A program made the position numbers and the translations under genes. Source: Thermosipho ferrireducens (GTDB lineage Bacteria; Thermotogota; Thermotogae; Thermotogales; Fervidobacteriaceae). From it: a stretch of DNA of 64,000 nt. Below the pieces are notes generated by a model. It was not told the DNA's origin. It saw nothing but the letters and a program-made list of their open reading frames with translations, and made no database searches. Numbering within the stretch: position 1 is the first letter of the stretch; every line of letters begins with the position of its first letter. Positions 4,153-49,795 of this stretch are shown piece by piece. The DNA is taken from the NCBI RefSeq assembly GCF_017358165.1, contig NZ_CP071446.1, forward strand, positions 1,426,001-1,490,000, in the 5' to 3' direction.

Positions 4153-4302
4153 GAAGTTATTTATTATAAGGTGATTAAAGACCATTTATCACTTTTAAAG
4201 TATAGCATAATCTTATGTCATATTCAATATACCATAGAAATAGTCTTTGTCAAGAAAATGCGGGGTCTGTTTCAAAAATAGGAAGGAAAGGTATAGAAAA
4301 AA

Positions 4303-4332
4303 AGCAAGGGAGATGTTATAATCTCCCTTGCT
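4303..4332 (+). promoter_or_regulatory. 12-bp perfect hairpin abutting the transposase start codon
   Basis: AGCAAGGGAGAT (4303-4314) and ATCTCCCTTGCT (4321-4332) are perfectly complementary with a 6-nt loop. The transposase ATG begins at the very next base. A TATAAT lies in the loop and 3' arm (4317-4322). The only purine-rich RBS-like GGGAG is inside the 5' arm and too far from the ATG. Such hairpins in IS elements commonly block expression from external transcripts; an internal start would give a nearly leaderless mRNA. The same structure occurs at 43998-44027. Confidence 0.6.
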
Positions 4333-5229
4333 ATGAGAAGAAGAAACATAAAGAAGATATTCAAACTTATCCAAAAATTCTACAAAAATATTTTACCACA
4401 ACTTCCCCAAAAATCTACCAATAGGGGGAGGCCTAGGAAATATTCAGATGTATTAATACTTTCATTAGCAGTTCTTAAAGAACTGTTGGGACTTTCATTC
4501 AGAGAGACATTAGAAATAGGTACAATGTACTTTAACAAAGTTCCATCACTCAGGGACTTTCATTACAGGGTTCTTCAATTAGAAGAGATTATAAAACATC
4601 TTATAAACTTCATACACAACACACTTCAGTGTGAGATAGAGAGTATTATAGTAGACGGTACAGGAATAGGGTTTAAGAAACATACTACCTTGAACTGGAT
4701 GAGAGGTACATATGTACGACAGATAAAGAACCACGTTAGATGTGAAGTAGTGTTAACAAAAGGAAAATACAAACTTTTTCAGTATGTGGAAGTGGGAAAA
4801 GCTTATTCAAGTGAAATAAAACTTCTAAAAAAACTATTGAAAAAGATAGAACTCAAGGGAAAGAAATTCATAGCAGACAAGTTGTACGATGTTAAATGGT
4901 TGAGGGAGTATCTGAAAAAAAGAGGAATAAAAGAGGTAATAAAAATAAGAAAAGGAGCAATAGGCAGGAAAGAAGTAGATTATGAAGAATACAAAGAAAG
5001 GAACGAAATAGAAGGACTATTTGGAAACATAAAAACAAAACTTGGGGGATATGTATACGCCTACAGAGATGACATGGCAAGGATACAGGCACTAATAAAG
5101 TTTTTATTGTACAACCTGTATGTGGCATATATTTTTCTTTTTACAAAGCTATGTATTGATATTACAAATTTCATAGAAAATCATATAAAAATATACAAAT
5201 TTTATATAATTCCATGTAAAATTAGATAA
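4333..5229 (+). CDS. DDE transposase of IS copy A
   Basis: Intact 298-aa transposase. The catalytic triad candidates are D in 'IIVDGTGIG' (about residue 100), D in 'KFIADKLYD' (about 180) and E in 'ERNEIEGLFGNIK' (about 230), the last resembling the YREK-type signature of IS4/IS5-like enzymes. The N-terminus is basic (MRRRNIKK) with a 'GRPRKYSD' segment followed by helix-turn-helix-like sequence. There is no Shine-Dalgarno sequence outside the upstream hairpin. The first 180 residues are identical to copy B; the C-terminal part differs by a few residues. Confidence 0.88.
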   Translation: MRRRNIKKIFKLIQKFYKNILPQLPQKSTNRGRPRKYSDVLILSLAVLKELLGLSFRETLEIGTMYFNKVPSLRDFHYRVLQLEEIIKHLINFIHNTLQCEIESIIVDGTGIGFKKHTTLNWMRGTYVRQIKNHVRCEVVLTKGKYKLFQYVEVGKAYSSEIKLLKKLLKKIELKGKKFIADKLYDVKWLREYLKKRGIKEVIKIRKGAIGRKEVDYEEYKERNEIEGLFGNIKTKLGGYVYAYRDDMARIQALIKFLLYNLYVAYIFLFTKLCIDITNFIENHIKIYKFYIIPCKIR

Positions 5230-5346
5230 AATTAGATAAAATTACATAAATTCACATGAAATTCATAAAAAAATTGTATATTTCAAGTTCATTTTTCTTA
5301 TTCTTATACGATTTTTGAAACAGGGCCAGAAAATGCGCCGAAAAAA

Positions 5347-43947: not shown

Positions 43948-44027
43948 AGTAATGTATGGGTCTGTTTCAAAAATAGGAAGGAAAGGTATAGAAAAAAAGC
44001 AAGGGAGATGTTATAATCTCCCTTGCT

Positions 44028-44566
44028 ATGAGAAGAAGAAACATAAAGAAGATATTCAAACTTATCCAAAAATTCTACAAAAATATTTTACCACAACTTC
44101 CCCAAAAATCTACCAATAGGGGGAGGCCTAGGAAATATTCAGATGTATTAATACTTTCATTAGCAGTTCTTAAAGAACTGTTGGGACTTTCATTCAGAGA
44201 GACATTAGAAATAGGTACAATGTACTTTAACAAAGTTCCATCACTCAGGGACTTTCATTACAGGGTTCTTCAATTAGAAGAGATTATAAAACATCTTATA
44301 AACTTCATACACAACACACTTCAGTGTGAGATAGAGAGTATTATAGTAGACGGTACAGGAATAGGGTTTAAGAAACATACTACCTTGAACTGGATGAGAG
44401 GTACATATGTACGACAGATAAAGAACCACGTTAGATGTGAAGTAGTGTTAACAAAAGGAAAATACAAACTTTTTCAGTATGTGGAAGTGGGAAAAGCTTA
44501 TTCAAGTGAAATAAAACTTCTAAAAAAACTATTGAAAAAGATAGAACTCAAGGGAAAGAAATTCAT
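44028..44566 (+). pseudogene. IS copy B transposase, 5' fragment
   Basis: Codes for the first 180 residues of the copy A transposase, apparently without change, up to 'LKGKKF' and part of the next codon. The frame then reads a few codons into the nested element. The first catalytic Asp region ('IIVDGTGIG') is retained, the other two are not, so the product is inactive. The 12-bp hairpin precedes the ATG at 43998-44027. Confidence 0.9.
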
Positions 44567-45845
44567 GAGACTAGTCAAAAAAATTGTGTCTGGTTAGCGT
44601 ACCTGAGATTGAAAAGTTGCAAAAGCTCGTACTCCACACCTTTGATTTTGGGTATAGAATTTTTCCAATTTTTTTCTTTTAATCTCTCCCGTATTAAAAA
44701 CACATTCAATTCTAACACCTCCACCGATTGGAAGTATTCTCCTTTCCTGTGTCTTTCTTTTTCCAACATACTGTTGAAACTTTCCGCTGCGTTTGTTGTG
44801 TATATGTAACTTCTCACCTCATCGGGATATTTCAAAAACACCACATACTTTTCTGCATCATTCAACAGTTTTTTCATGAAGATCGGGTATTTTTCTTTGT
44901 AGCTTTCACACAGCTTTTTAAGCTGTTCAAGCCCTGTGTCGTAATCGGGTTGAACCTTTATTTGTTTCAGTTCTTTTTTAAACTGTTTGGCATCTTCTTT
45001 GTTCATATGCTTGTTCACGTTTCTTTTCAGATGTACCCAGCACAGCTGATGATCAGCTTCTGGATATGCAAGTTTCACCGCGTCATTCATACCTGGAAAG
45101 TTGTCACTCACCAACACCATTACCCTTTTCAATCCCCTGCTCACCAAATCATCAAACACACGCATCCAGTCGAATTTATTTTCAGGACCAAAGTGAACGT
45201 AAAATCCGTATATATCTTTTTTTCCTTCCATGTCTATTCCAAGTACAATATATACACTCGCATCTCTTACCCTTCCATCTTTCTTTACCTGACATCTGTA
45301 TGCATCCACCACCAATGCAAATGCTGATGTTGGAAGTTGTCTCGTCTTGAAATCCTTTAACCTCTCCATAAGTTGTTCCCGAATCTTTGTCAGTTCTTCC
45401 TTTGTGTACGGAAGTTTTAGTGTTTCAAGTACATCCATGATTTGTGTGGGAGAATAACCATTCAAAACTAATGCCATGACAAATTGTGTGTATTCAGTTG
45501 TGTTCCGTTTCCAGCGTTCTGGAAGAATAGAAGACCTGAATTGCCCGCTTCTTGTTCGTGGAATGTTGAGACTGTACGATATCCCCGCAGAATTAACTGT
45601 CCGTGTGTAAAATCCGTTGCCTTTGTCTTGCACATGATTCTGAAGAAAGATATCCCTTTCACCCAGCATGAATGATTCAAGAAACGCTTCACAGAACTCT
45701 TTGAGCGCTATTTTTGTCTGTTCGTCACTATTTTTACAGTACTTTTCTATCATTTTGTTTATTGCATACTCCTTGGCTTTCTCGTACATCTCTTTATCAA
45801 TTCCCATCCCTTTCACCCCCTAGACACATTTTTTATTATACTCCC
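44567..45845 (-). mobile_element. IS256-family insertion sequence nested in IS copy B (1279 bp)
   Basis: Flanked by an 8-bp direct repeat AAATTCAT (44559-44566 and 45846-45853), the usual duplication length for IS256. Ends are imperfect inverted repeats: GAGACTAGTC...TTGTGTCT on the left and, read inward from the right, GGGAGTATAAT...TGTGTCT. The empty site is present in copy A, which confirms the boundaries to the base. Its transposase is intact. Confidence 0.93.
44575..45816 (-). CDS. IS256-family (mutator-type) transposase
   Basis: Intact 413-aa DDE transposase. The first Asp lies in 'SAFALVVDAYRCQVKKDGRV', the second in 'VMVLVSDNFPGMNDAVKLAY', and the C/H region 'DHQLCWVHLKRNVNKHM' and 'TTNAAESFNSMLEKERHRKG' with the catalytic Glu are typical of IS256. 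It spans nearly the whole element on the minus strand. No second copy exists in this window. Confidence 0.95.
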   Translation of the reverse strand: MKGMGIDKEMYEKAKEYAINKMIEKYCKNSDEQTKIALKEFCEAFLESFMLGERDIFLQNHVQDKGNGFYTRTVNSAGISYSLNIPRTRSGQFRSSILPERWKRNTTEYTQFVMALVLNGYSPTQIMDVLETLKLPYTKEELTKIREQLMERLKDFKTRQLPTSAFALVVDAYRCQVKKDGRVRDASVYIVLGIDMEGKKDIYGFYVHFGPENKFDWMRVFDDLVSRGLKRVMVLVSDNFPGMNDAVKLAYPEADHQLCWVHLKRNVNKHMNKEDAKQFKKELKQIKVQPDYDTGLEQLKKLCESYKEKYPIFMKKLLNDAEKYVVFLKYPDEVRSYIYTTNAAESFNSMLEKERHRKGEYFQSVEVLELNVFLIRERLKEKNWKNSIPKIKGVEYELLQLFNLRYANQTQFF

Positions 45846-45853
45846 AAATTCAT

Positions 45854-46211
45854 AGCAGACAAGCTGTACGATGTTAAATGGTTGAGGGAGTATCTGAAAA
45901 AAAGAGGAATAAAAGAGGTAATAAAAATAAGAAAAAGAGCAATAGGCAGGAAAGAAGTAGATTATGAAGAATACAAAGAAAGGAACGAAATAGAAGGACT
46001 ATTTGGAAACATAAAAACAAAGCTTGGGGGATATGTATACGCCTACAGAGAGGACATGGCAAGGATACAGGCACTAATAAAGTTTTTATTGTACAACCTG
46101 TATGTGGCATATATTTTTCTTTTTACACAGTTGTGGAATGATATTACAAATTTCATAGAAAATCATATAAAAATATACAAATTTTATATAATTCCATGTA
46201 AAATTAGATAA
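45854..46211 (+). pseudogene. IS copy B transposase, 3' fragment
   Basis: Continues the copy A transposase from 'ADKLYDVKWLREYLKKRG' to the C-terminus. Relative to copy A it has a Gly-to-Arg change in 'RKRAIGRKE', Asp-to-Glu in 'YREDMARIQ', and a changed 'TQLWNDITNF' segment. It retains the second and third catalytic acidic residues but has no start signals of its own. Confidence 0.88.
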
Positions 46212-46318
46212 AATTAGATAAAATTACATAAATTCACATGAAATTCATAAAAAAATTGTATATTTCAAGTTCATTTTTCTTATTCTTATACGATTTTTGA
46301 AACAGGGCCAGTAATGTA

Positions 46319-46347
46319 TTGACACTGTTCAATTTCCATGTTATTAT
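46319..46347 (+). promoter_or_regulatory. Promoter of the split ABC exporter operon
   Basis: TTGACA (46319-46324), a 17-nt spacer and TATTAT (46342-46347), close to consensus. The first two bases of the -35 overlap the IS copy B target duplication (AGTAATGTAT|TGACA), so the promoter abuts the IS and predates or was created by that insertion. Confidence 0.7.
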
Positions 46348-46389
46348 TTTTACGATTTTTGATTTTTTCACACTTAAGGGGGCAAGAGT

Positions 46390-46425
46390 ATGAGAAAGAA
46401 TAAGAATTTTTTCAGGACAATTTAA
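46390..46425 (+). CDS. Leader peptide MRKNKNFFRTI
   Basis: An 11-aa ORF with a good RBS (AAGGGGG, 46376-46382, 7-nt spacing) located between the promoter and a terminator hairpin. It precedes an ABC exporter operon, as the bmrB leader does for bmrCD in Bacillus subtilis. No strongly biased codon run is present, so an inducer cannot be guessed from it. Confidence 0.5.
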   Translation: MRKNKNFFRTI

Positions 46426-46439
46426 TAAAAAAATATTTG

Positions 46440-46566
46440 CGGCAACCAGATAAAAGGTAATAATCTGCCTTTTGATATATTGCTGTTTTTATCATTCTTG
46501 AGTTGAATGATCTTCTTTTGTATTAGATTTTCATGTAAAAAGCCCCGGGTTGCCGGGGCTTTTTTG
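46440..46566 (+). terminator. Attenuator: terminator with competing antiterminator
   Basis: AAAAAGCCCCGG (46537-46548) pairs with CCGGGGCTTTTT (46553-46564) followed by T residues: a strong terminator 35 nt before the first exporter gene. Upstream CGGCAACC (46440-46447) is perfectly complementary to GGTTGCCG (46548-46555), which covers the terminator loop and start of its 3' arm. The same CGGCAACC region can alternatively pair with ATCTGCC (46463-46469) via GGCA and AGAT. Three exclusive pairings are the layout of a transcription attenuator. Confidence 0.65.
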
Positions 46567-46599
46567 TTGCAAATTTTCTGGGAAATGGAGGGATTTTAG

Positions 46600-47553
46600 A
46601 TGAAAGAATTTTATAAATATTTTTATCTGTTTCATAAACTTCTTTCGCCTTCTCTTTTTATCAAGAAACTATTTATTGACATTGCATATTTTATCTCCAG
46701 ATTTTTATCGCTTATGCTTCCCATTTTTCTTGGAAAGATAGTGGATAATTTTGGAAAAAGAGAAATTTTACCCAGCCTTTACGCTTACGTATTTGTTTAT
46801 TCTGCTCTGTTTTTGTTTCAACAGATCAGTGGTATTAACAGAAGAACATTTTCAATAGTTGATGGGCCAAAGTATTTATTTGAAAAAGGAATATCAAATG
46901 TTTTGAAAAGAAAGGAAAATAATTTTGTTCCAGAAAAGGAAATGGACAAAATATTCAGTTTTTCTCATATTTTTGAATTTTTCTACGCGACTTTTTCTTT
47001 ATACGTTTTAATTGTTCCTGTTATGATGGCATTTTCTATAGGAATGATTATGTTAAATGAATGGAAAGCAGGCATTGTGGCAATATTCAGTTTTATTTTT
47101 ACATGGATGTCGAGTAATAAAAAAATGAAAGTAGAAGAAAAAGCAGCGTCTCAAATGAATGAAGCTGAATATAGTGTAGCAGAAACGTTATCGGATTTAT
47201 ATTCTGGATACGAAGATATCAGAGCATATGAGACCTTTAATTTAACATTTCGATGGGTGGAAAAGGTTTTAAACGGGTTAAAAAAGGCTTATTATCTGTT
47301 TGGAAAAGTTGAAGTTAAATTCGGACTTACCTATGAATTTGTATCAATTCTAACCATGCCCATTATAACATTCATACTGGGTTTTGAAGTTTTCTCTGGA
47401 AATCTTTCGGCTGGAAAGGCTATAATGCTCCTTGTTTATGCAGAAAGAGTACAGGACTATTCTGAAGTGTATATTCAAGATACAGACTATATCGCATGGG
47501 CAGTTGCCCGAGCAAAAGTTGCATACAAAGAATATTTAAAGGAGGATGAATAA
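46600..47553 (+). CDS. ABC exporter transmembrane-domain protein (no NBD), first
   Basis: 317-aa protein equal to the type IV exporter transmembrane domain alone: six hydrophobic segments, starting 'SPSLFIKKLFIDIAYFISRF' with 'LPIFLGKIVDN', and ending in the coupling/linker helix 'AWAVARAKVAYKEYLKEDE', just where a nucleotide-binding domain would normally continue. Instead a stop codon follows and a separate ATPase gene begins. ATG 46600 follows ATGGAGGG. Its partner is probably the second membrane protein at 48295. Confidence 0.85.
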   Translation: MKEFYKYFYLFHKLLSPSLFIKKLFIDIAYFISRFLSLMLPIFLGKIVDNFGKREILPSLYAYVFVYSALFLFQQISGINRRTFSIVDGPKYLFEKGISNVLKRKENNFVPEKEMDKIFSFSHIFEFFYATFSLYVLIVPVMMAFSIGMIMLNEWKAGIVAIFSFIFTWMSSNKKMKVEEKAASQMNEAEYSVAETLSDLYSGYEDIRAYETFNLTFRWVEKVLNGLKKAYYLFGKVEVKFGLTYEFVSILTMPIITFILGFEVFSGNLSAGKAIMLLVYAERVQDYSEVYIQDTDYIAWAVARAKVAYKEYLKEDE

Positions 47554-47554
47554 T

Positions 47555-48298
47555 ATGTTTGAAAAAATCGAATTTATCAATTTATCTTTTGAATATGAAG
47601 GAAGAAAAATACTGGATAATTTTAATTTACAAATAAAACGTGGTGAAAAAATTGCAATTGTAGGTTCAAGTGGTGAGGGGAAAACAACTTTAATAAGACT
47701 CATGTTAAGGTTCATAAGTCCACATTCTGGAAAAATACTGGTAAATGAAAAACCTATATCAGAATTTGAGAATTGGTACAAAATGTTAGGAGTCTTAAGT
47801 CAAAAAGCGCATATTTTTAATAGAAGTTTGAGAGAAAATCTTCTTATTGCAAATCCCAGAGCATCTGACAAAGAAATGTATGAAGCACTTGAAAAGGCCG
47901 GACTAAAGAAATTTATGCAAACAAGGAACCTTGACACTATTCTCGGAAATGAAGGTGGATTCACATCAGGTGGGGAAAGAACAAGAATAGCACTTGCAAG
48001 ACTGTTACTTAGAAAGCCGGAAATTGTTATTCTTGACGAACCTCTGGAAGGTGTGGATAAACTTGTTGAAAAAGAGGTTATTGAAAATATTAGAGATTTT
48101 GTAAAAGATAAGACTTTGATTTTAATTTCGCACAGATTTAGTATTCTTTCGTTAACGGAAGAGTTTGCAGTACTTGAAAATGGGAAAATTATTGAAAAAG
48201 GAAAATATCACGAACATTCAGAGGACAGCCTTTTGAAGCAATTTTTCAAAGCCGAACAGGAACTGACCGAAAAATTCAGAAAGGATGATGTCGTATGA
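47555..48298 (+). CDS. ABC exporter nucleotide-binding protein
   Basis: 247-aa ATPase resembling the NBD of type IV (MsbA/LmrA-like) exporters. Walker A 'IVGSSGEGKTTLIRLMLRF', Q-loop 'LGVLSQKAHIFNRSLRENLL', signature 'FTSGGERTRIALARLLLRKP' (SGGE rather than SGGQ), Walker B 'EIVILDEPLEGVD', H-loop 'LILISHRFS'. All catalytic elements are present. ATG 47555 is preferred: AAAGGAGG (47538-47545) lies 9 nt upstream, while the in-frame ATG at 47546 abuts it. Its stop overlaps the next start (ATGA). As the only NBD in the operon it must homodimerise or pair with an outside NBD. Confidence 0.88.
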   Translation: MFEKIEFINLSFEYEGRKILDNFNLQIKRGEKIAIVGSSGEGKTTLIRLMLRFISPHSGKILVNEKPISEFENWYKMLGVLSQKAHIFNRSLRENLLIANPRASDKEMYEALEKAGLKKFMQTRNLDTILGNEGGFTSGGERTRIALARLLLRKPEIVILDEPLEGVDKLVEKEVIENIRDFVKDKTLILISHRFSILSLTEEFAVLENGKIIEKGKYHEHSEDSLLKQFFKAEQELTEKFRKDDVV

Positions 48299-49227
48299 AA
48301 GAATTGATAAAATGGATTCTAAAATTACCGAAAAAATTATTATACATGATCGGAATAATGAATTTATTCGGAATATTTTCAAGCTTGATTGTTTCATACA
48401 CTGCAATAATAAATAAAGATGTTATAAATTACGCGATTTCAGGGAATAAAAATTTTTTCATAAGTAGTATGTTATTGGTAATTGCAGTTTTAACAAGTCA
48501 TGTTTTATTCACCCTGGGAAAAGGGTTTGTTTCTTTTACCAAAGGGAATTATCTTAAATACTTTGGTGAATATTGCTATAAAAAAATAATGAATAAAGAT
48601 TTTTCTGATTTTTCTAAAAAAACTCCTGCTTTTTATTCTGAGGTTTCTTTAAGAACCATTGAAGATATGCTTTATTTGATTTCAGATTATAACAATTCAG
48701 GAGGACTTGTTTTTGCATTTAGAATTACATTCTACATGCTAACTATATACACGCTTGATTATGTTTCCGGTATGTTTATGATCTTATTTTCCATTTTAAT
48801 TTTGCTATCTCTCTGGATAGCTAACATTTACTATTATAAACATTCAAAAATAGTGAAAGATAAATTTTTAGAGGTTAGATCATATGTCGCGGATATGTTC
48901 AGAGGAAAAAAAGAGACGCAGTTATTCGAAGCATACGATTTTGAAATGAATCTCTATAGGAAAAATACTGACCCTGTGTGGAAATACAAAAGAAGACTCT
49001 TTTTTGTTGATTTCATACTTAGTTTTTCGATTCGGGATTTAATTTCAACAGTATTTTATCTTTTTATCGTATATCGTGGAATAATCATAGGAAATGCTGG
49101 TACTTTTTATGCTCTCTTAAATTTATTCGCATTGATACGTTATCAGTTATTTGCTGCTATTGGAATATGGGACAGTATACGTTCTGGAATAACTTCTGCA
49201 AGGCAACTTGAAGAAATAGTAGGATAA
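48295..49227 (+). CDS. ABC exporter transmembrane-domain protein (no NBD), second
   Basis: 310-aa six-helix transmembrane domain, only weakly similar to the first. 'YMIGIMNLFGIFSSLIVSYT' gives TM1; cytosolic loops include 'MNKDFSDFSKKTPAFYSEVS', an X-loop/coupling-helix-like segment; it ends 'IRSGITSARQLEEIVG', the point where an NBD linker usually begins. A terminator follows within 20 nt, so no second NBD is encoded. The substrate is unknown; a peptide, lipid or drug are all possible. Confidence 0.83.
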   Translation: MKELIKWILKLPKKLLYMIGIMNLFGIFSSLIVSYTAIINKDVINYAISGNKNFFISSMLLVIAVLTSHVLFTLGKGFVSFTKGNYLKYFGEYCYKKIMNKDFSDFSKKTPAFYSEVSLRTIEDMLYLISDYNNSGGLVFAFRITFYMLTIYTLDYVSGMFMILFSILILLSLWIANIYYYKHSKIVKDKFLEVRSYVADMFRGKKETQLFEAYDFEMNLYRKNTDPVWKYKRRLFFVDFILSFSIRDLISTVFYLFIVYRGIIIGNAGTFYALLNLFALIRYQLFAAIGIWDSIRSGITSARQLEEIVG

Positions 49228-49281: not shown

Positions 49282-49378
49282 ATTTTAAAATTTTGACATA
49301 TTTGATACAATATAAAAAGAAAATTCACAAGAATAAGAACAATTTATAAAAACCTGTATGTTTGATGGAGGTATTTTC

Positions 49379-49795
49379 ATGAATTATTTTTATTTAGATT
49401 TAAAAAGAGTAATGCCAAGTCAGCTTTATATCTCAAAAGAAAAATTGAAAAATGTATTAAAATACATAAAAAATGTAGGTATTAACAATATTGAGCCTAT
49501 ACCTATTAAAAAAATCGGTAACATTACTTTTTTTACAGATGGACACACAAGAGCGTATGCTCTCTGGAGATTAGGATTAAAAAAGATAAAAGTGACCTGG
49601 GAAACTGACGAACTTGATTGGGAACTTTATTTAATTTGTATAGATTGGTGTATAAATGAAAAGATAACCAATATTTCTCATTTAAGAGTTATTTCACACA
49701 ATCGATACAAAAAAATGTGGTTGAAAAGATGCGAGCAACTTCAGAAACAACTATACTCTTCATGTGCAATTTTTAAAACTAATCTTAAAAAATGA
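49379..49795 (+). CDS. ParB/sulfiredoxin-fold (ParB-like nuclease domain) protein
   Basis: 138-aa protein. The core 'EPIPIKKIGNITFFTDGHTR' followed by 'AYALWRLGLKKIKV' matches the ParB N-terminal/sulfiredoxin-like fold, where a 'DGHHR'-type loop binds nucleotide. There is no DNA-binding helix-turn-helix or ParA partner, so it is not a partition protein. ATG 49379 follows TGGAGG; an in-frame ATG at 49358 lies upstream of that RBS. It is preceded by a terminator and a TTGATACAAT element near 49300. Function unknown; similar stand-alone proteins have been annotated as phosphotransferase-like. Confidence 0.65.
   Translation: MNYFYLDLKRVMPSQLYISKEKLKNVLKYIKNVGINNIEPIPIKKIGNITFFTDGHTRAYALWRLGLKKIKVTWETDELDWELYLICIDWCINEKITNISHLRVISHNRYKKMWLKRCEQLQKQLYSSCAIFKTNLKK

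Follow-up and report, generated by a model that had tools for sequence, protein, structure and literature searches.

A conserved short leader with alternative terminator and antiterminator folds, likely a ribosome-controlled attenuator, precedes an ABC exporter operon in Thermosipho ferrireducens

What controls the expression of the ABC exporter genes found in the window, the 64,000-nucleotide stretch of the 1.98 Mb Thermosipho ferrireducens genome that was analysed here? We consider it likely that the leader in front of these genes is a ribosome-controlled transcription attenuator of the operon. A reading made from the sequence alone had proposed a near-consensus promoter, an 11-codon ORF with a good ribosome-binding site, a strong terminator and exporter genes downstream of them, and each of these elements was found in its place (Table 1). 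The promoter, TTGACA-17-TATTAT with an extended TG, agrees with the consensus at 11 of 12 positions, and its position is conserved in five orthologous leaders. About 7 bp upstream of its -35 box, and leaving the promoter whole, ends a DDE-type insertion sequence (43998-46311), which is itself split by a Mutator-family transposase gene on the minus strand (44575-45816); an intact copy is located near 4300-5330. The leader ORF reads ATG AGA AAG AAT AAG AAT TTT TTC AGG ACA ATT TAA, and a G-rich element occupies the Shine-Dalgarno position in all orthologues. The terminator begins 111 nt after the leader stop codon and has a predicted stability of -20.9 kcal/mol at 37 C; a stock terminator scan did not pick it up because its U tract is partly paired.

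Table 1. Features of the leader and the exporter operon (window coordinates).
Feature	Position	Strand	Basis or remark
Sigma-70-type promoter	46319-46347	+	-35 TTGACA 46319-46324, -10 TATTAT 46342-46347
Shine-Dalgarno of leader peptide, AAGGGGG	46376-46382	+	Sequence
Leader peptide ORF, MRKNKNFFRTI-stop	46390-46425	+	K3-N4-K5 (+X+) and T-I-stop
Local hairpin, GCGGCAA (46439-46445) / UUGCUGU (46480-46486)	46439-46486	+	Candidate anti-antiterminator; folding prediction
Antiterminator strand, CGGCAACC	46440-46447	+	Perfect complement of GGTTGCCG, 46548-46555, inside terminator
Intrinsic terminator, AAAAAGCCCCGG-GTTG-CCGGGGCTTTTT	46537-46564 (with 3' part as CCGGGGCTTTTTT, to 46565)	+	Sequence, folding
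ABC exporter membrane subunit 1, lacking an ATPase domain	46600-47553	+	Pfam ABC_membrane, 28.7 bits vs cut-off 28
ABC exporter ATPase subunit	47546-48298	+	Pfam ABC_tran, 1.1e-31
Second membrane subunit, presumed	48295-49227	+	Operon position; no family match
Fourth gene, possibly ParB-like	49358-49795	+	Orthologue same place in L014; ParB_N, ParBc_2 at E about 0.1 only

The genes behind the leader form a split exporter. The orthologue of the first membrane subunit in genome G091 matches Pfam ABC_membrane with 36.7 bits, and the closest solved sequences to the ATPase subunit are ABCB1-type exporters. The presumed second membrane subunit has a 74% identical orthologue at the same position in Thermosipho GB_MAG9_058; its structure model (pLDDT 39) was too poor for use. 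Because a distant relative of the split exporter in G088 (L035:174-3783) follows a radical SAM gene resembling the AlbA/StsB sactipeptide maturases, the exporter family may include peptide exporters, and the substrate of the operon may be a peptide and not a drug.

Is the leader itself a conserved feature of this operon? Within the order, orthologues of the first membrane subunit were confined to eight genomes of the family, one of them the genome of the window; a ninth lies in a different family of the class. Six of the eight family genomes (the window's own, G003, G014, G007, G013 and G008) carry the leader in front of the orthologous exporter, and in all six the peptide has 11 codons with the consensus MRK-x-[KR]-x(4)-T-I-stop. 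The peptides of the five relatives are MRKSKFVFGTI (in both G003 and G014), MRKIRIFSETI (G007), MRKIRTFSETI (G013) and, with a GTG start codon, MRKIKTYSKTI (G008). Thus, MRK, the basic residue 5 and T-I-stop are invariant, residues 6-9 vary freely, and the basic character of residue 5 is maintained by four different codons (AAG, AAA, AGA and AGG). A covariance model of the leader recovered these six members and additionally one in G091, from another family of the phylum (E=1.9e-4), where a shortened peptide, MRRREILSI, precedes the exporter orthologue. Two other matches of the model, L026 and L027, were rejected as members, being plain terminators without a leader. A strict pattern for the leader ORF recovered four of these six; it missed G003 and G014, which deviate from it at fixed positions.

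The other two orthologues of the family, those of G004 and G011, have no MRK-type peptide, and neither CGGCAACC nor the terminator was found upstream of their exporters. They keep a promoter-like sequence and carry a 4-codon ORF, GTG ATT ATC AAT TAA (L007:1240-1391 and L009), so that either the attenuator has been lost or these short leaders exert a different control. Because the parts are lost together in these two genomes and kept in the others, the peptide, the pairing strand and the terminator are co-conserved. The leader was absent upstream of the paralogous exporters at L035 and L050. In G014, the exporter gene that follows the conserved leader has been disrupted by a frameshift and stop codons (L012, G014:C23:112009-112955), and the leader itself differs very little from its counterpart in G003, which belongs to another genus; these observations hint at a recent loss and a possible transfer. 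The sequence-only reading had pointed to orthologous loci as the place where its proposal could fail, through absence of the leader ORF, and the ORF is kept there. At the level of sequence, comparison among relatives thus establishes the leader ORF, the terminator, the antiterminator pairing described below and their co-conservation.

The second line of evidence comes from the two folds. The claim that CGGCAACC is the exact reverse complement of a segment inside the terminator proved correct, and in 1000 dinucleotide shuffles of the spacer of the window leader, none reached a complement of 8 nt. For each of five other leaders, a complement of the observed length arose in 0-1 of 1000 spacer shuffles. 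The antiterminator and terminator strands are CGGCAACC/GGTTGCCG in the window, CGACAACTC/GAGTTGTCG in G008 and CGACAACG/CGTTGTCG in G091. Among the six distinct sequences of the antiterminator helix, 100% of the cells are paired; in two of the eight pairs both bases have changed, three pair types occurring at one of the two, these counts being taken from related sequences, so that the events are not independent. The covariation score of the antiterminator was reached by none of 500 shuffles. The versions in G008 and G091, which differ at pair 8, are best read as the outcome of at least two separate changes. Moreover, the terminator stem covaries in the relatives at positions overlapping the antiterminator, and in G008 the positions corresponding to 46442, 46447, 46548 and 46553 change together in a manner that preserves both folds. 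Because the antiterminator strand and the terminator covary, both have probably been selected, as functional alternatives, and this preservation of both folds is the strongest evidence that they act as such. The coupling of the leader to an antiterminator/terminator switch before the exporter, as first proposed, is therefore well supported by the orthologue comparison and by the covariation of the antiterminator.

What might the leader sense? A basic residue, any residue and a second basic residue (+X+; here K-x-K/R or R-R-R) occur within residues 2-5 of all seven leader peptides; about 3% would be expected to contain such a motif there by composition, and 5 of 54 long ORFs do. The +X+ motif is the main arrest site of ketolides and a common one of macrolides, and it is used in resistance leader peptides (PMC8298421). 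Because the motif is present in all seven peptides, together with the exporter operon, a 50S inhibitor of the macrolide or ketolide kind is the leading candidate for the signal, and induction of the exporter by ribosome-targeting drugs is plausible.

The other end of the peptide offers a different sensor, which we regard as unlikely: rather than at +X+, the ribosome would stall at the end of the ORF, its P site holding the last Ile codon and its A site the stop codon, owing to a phenicol- or oxazolidinone-type inhibitor or to slow termination, and would cover ten bases after the stop, leaving CGGCAACC free. Thr or Ser as the penultimate residue would suit inhibitors of the phenicol or oxazolidinone type. 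ACA ATT TAA is invariant in six leaders and is represented by TCA ATT TAA in G091, so that T/S-I-stop is kept throughout; in the six leaders the first base of the antiterminator follows the stop codon by 13-15 nt, a position immediately beyond the edge expected for the ribosome, although in G091 it follows by 20 nt, with a gap of 19 nt. In G003, the stop-codon region pairs strongly with the stretch before the terminator, but this pairing is weak in most leaders; as a general feature we rejected it (combined P 0.014, driven by G003 alone). A further point against this sensor is that a G before ACA is fixed despite the variation of residue 9 (R, G, E or K), which points to selection at the RNA level. 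The third-position bases of AAG at codon 3 and of the ATT codon are invariant as well. Because these third-position bases are invariant against the codon usage of the window, in which AAG accounts for 20% of the Lys codons and ATT for 43% of the Ile codons, part of the conservation of the leader appears to act on the RNA and not only on the peptide.

Alternatively, the leader might need no specific arrest site at all, and any delay of its ribosome, through drugs, amino acid shortage or cold, might allow the antiterminator to form. This is quite unlikely in our judgement. Several 50S drugs, and also the speed of translation, act on the bmrB leader (PMC4191407), and the free variation of residues 6-9 would suit such a general sensor; however, the fixed length of the peptide and its two constant ends exceed what that sensor would need.

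Returning to the attenuator itself, the geometry of the pairing is in part an argument against it. GGTTGCCG consists of the terminator loop and the top of the stem, so that the antiterminator covers the loop and the upper three stem pairs only and leaves four G-C pairs of the stem free. Since this lower stem could coexist with the antiterminator helix, the pairing might have another role, as a pseudoknot stabilising the terminator or with the loop as a target of a protein or a small RNA, and translation of the leader would then be incidental. We consider this very improbable: bases of the terminator stem take part in several of the eight pairs, which makes the full stem and the pairing mutually exclusive, and the MRK-type peptide, the pairing strand and the terminator are kept or lost together. 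Other explanations were rejected, namely an amino-acid attenuator of the trp, his or phe kind (no repeated residue is conserved across the orthologues, and the operon encodes an exporter) and a riboswitch or other Rfam family (the leader gave no gathering-level match, and the weak matches below the cut-off lay mostly over the terminator). The window does contain a cobalamin riboswitch, located at 34-203 before an operon for a periplasmic binding protein and a permease.

Which structure, if any, opposes the antiterminator strand? The AGAT/ATCT pairing that had been suggested as its alternative partner did not hold up, being too weak at 37 C (-2.1 kcal/mol) and unstable at 65 C. In the window genome, folding instead predicts that the local GCGGCAA/UUGCUGU hairpin (-15.8 kcal/mol at 37 C, weakening to -6.4 at 65 C) is a real local competitor of CGGCAACC, sequestering the antiterminator strand. 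The relatives showed no above-chance conservation of this hairpin, and no conserved anti-antiterminator was found between CGGCAACC and the spacer, competitors being at chance level in most leaders. A further segment, GTTGCAAATTTT (46566-46575), directly follows the U tract of the terminator and is kept in several leaders; at its site G013 has GTTACAAATTTT and G091 has GTTGCCAATTTAA. In readthrough RNA, the GCAAC core of the antiterminator strand could be a pairing partner for this segment.

In folding of the full-length RNA, the terminator was always more stable than the antiterminator; antitermination must therefore be kinetic. When the RNA was folded at the point where GGTTGCCG is just complete, the antiterminator dominated in five of six leaders, with or without a ribosome; in the window leader it hardly formed unless, at 65 C, a ribosome occupied the start codon. 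Static folding with ribosome masking, at 37 and 65 C, showed no consistent effect of the ribosome on the fold. Masking of the antiterminator strand by a ribosome halted on the stop codon, as a trp-like model would have it, was rejected for its spacing, which is too long, because the strand starts just beyond the edge of such a ribosome.

We therefore propose the following scheme for the attenuator, in which we infer what the ribosome does, which way the control runs and what the signal is; ribosome control as such is likely. Transcription would start from the conserved promoter, and the 11-residue leader peptide would be translated. During normal translation of the leader, the GC-rich terminator would form, and most transcripts would end before the exporter genes. 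If a ribosome stalled on the leader, CGGCAACC would pair with GGTTGCCG, the hairpin could not zip up, and the polymerase would go on to transcribe the exporter genes. This pairing probably starts at the exposed GTTG loop, since the loop emerges from the polymerase ahead of the 3' arm. The leader ribosome would be the natural control of such a kinetic decision, possibly through its timing relative to polymerase pausing, as demonstrated for tlrB (PMC6851288). In the RNA of the window itself, opening of the switch would require that the GCGGCAA/UUGCUGU hairpin be avoided. A fuller picture, in which a tiny peptide with arrest motifs at both ends reads ribosome-targeting drugs in Thermotogota while the antiterminator lands on the terminator's own loop, a single strand competing with hairpin closure at high growth temperature without a separate anti-antiterminator, is improbable when taken as a whole.

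If the scheme is correct, attenuation of an exporter in response to drugs or stalling would operate in a heat-loving lineage far from the Firmicutes, where such leaders were worked out, and this would suggest that heat-loving organisms meet ribosome inhibitors in nature. The seven leaders, with their covarying alternative folds, would then provide a compact natural test case for RNA switching at high temperature. In the literature searched, composed mostly of papers outside subscription, we found no earlier description either of this leader or of any attenuator of the antibiotic type from Thermotogota.

How does the leader compare with known systems? The sequence-only reading had likened it to the bmrB leader of the Bacillus subtilis exporter BmrCD, and the likeness stands for the mechanism, an attenuator with an antiterminator and a terminator before an ABC drug exporter (PMC4191407), but not for the build. 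BmrB is 53 residues long, and the terminator lies within its coding sequence (PMC4191407), whereas the leader here has 11 residues and a separate terminator, and its operon has separate membrane and ATPase genes; membership of the bmrB-type class was rejected, since with a leader of 11 codons the terminator lies 111 nt after the stop and not within the ORF. The leaders of mef(E)/mel (Streptococcus pneumoniae, Mef(E)L MTASMRLR) and ermD/ermK, which control macrolide efflux or methylation by transcription attenuation, share the very short peptide, the +X+ motif and the strong terminator, and in them, too, the terminator is invaded by a distal repeat that closely follows the leader (PMC4335068). 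No sequence relation to those leaders was noticed. The motif is C-terminal in those leaders and N-terminal here, and their antiterminator includes the U tract, whereas the one described here targets the terminator loop and the upper stem. The tlrB (yxjB) leader of B. subtilis likewise combines a short peptide (9 residues), an arrest motif (R-Y-R) and a terminator upstream of a resistance gene, and its drug-stalled ribosome prevents termination (PMC6851288). There, however, it is the stalled ribosome that keeps the terminator hairpin from forming, and the ribosome site of the gene is hidden in a second hairpin; here more than 100 nt separate the terminator from the leader, and the antiterminator is a distinct, conserved element. 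At vmlR of B. subtilis, stalling of a ribosome on the uORF allows an antiterminator to form, and intrinsic termination is thereby prevented (PMC9226507), a course also proposed here, but a defined anti-antiterminator containing the uORF exists there and none is conserved here. The features of the mef(E)L, ermD/K and tlrB kind that comparison revealed in the present leaders are a short leader ORF with a ribosome site (in seven genomes), the terminator, an antiterminator that excludes it and the +X+ motif. The build is thus closer to the mef(E)L, ermD/K and tlrB leaders than to bmrB, and, as judged from sequence comparison, these leaders represent a new, previously unlisted, conserved leader family of a known mechanistic kind.
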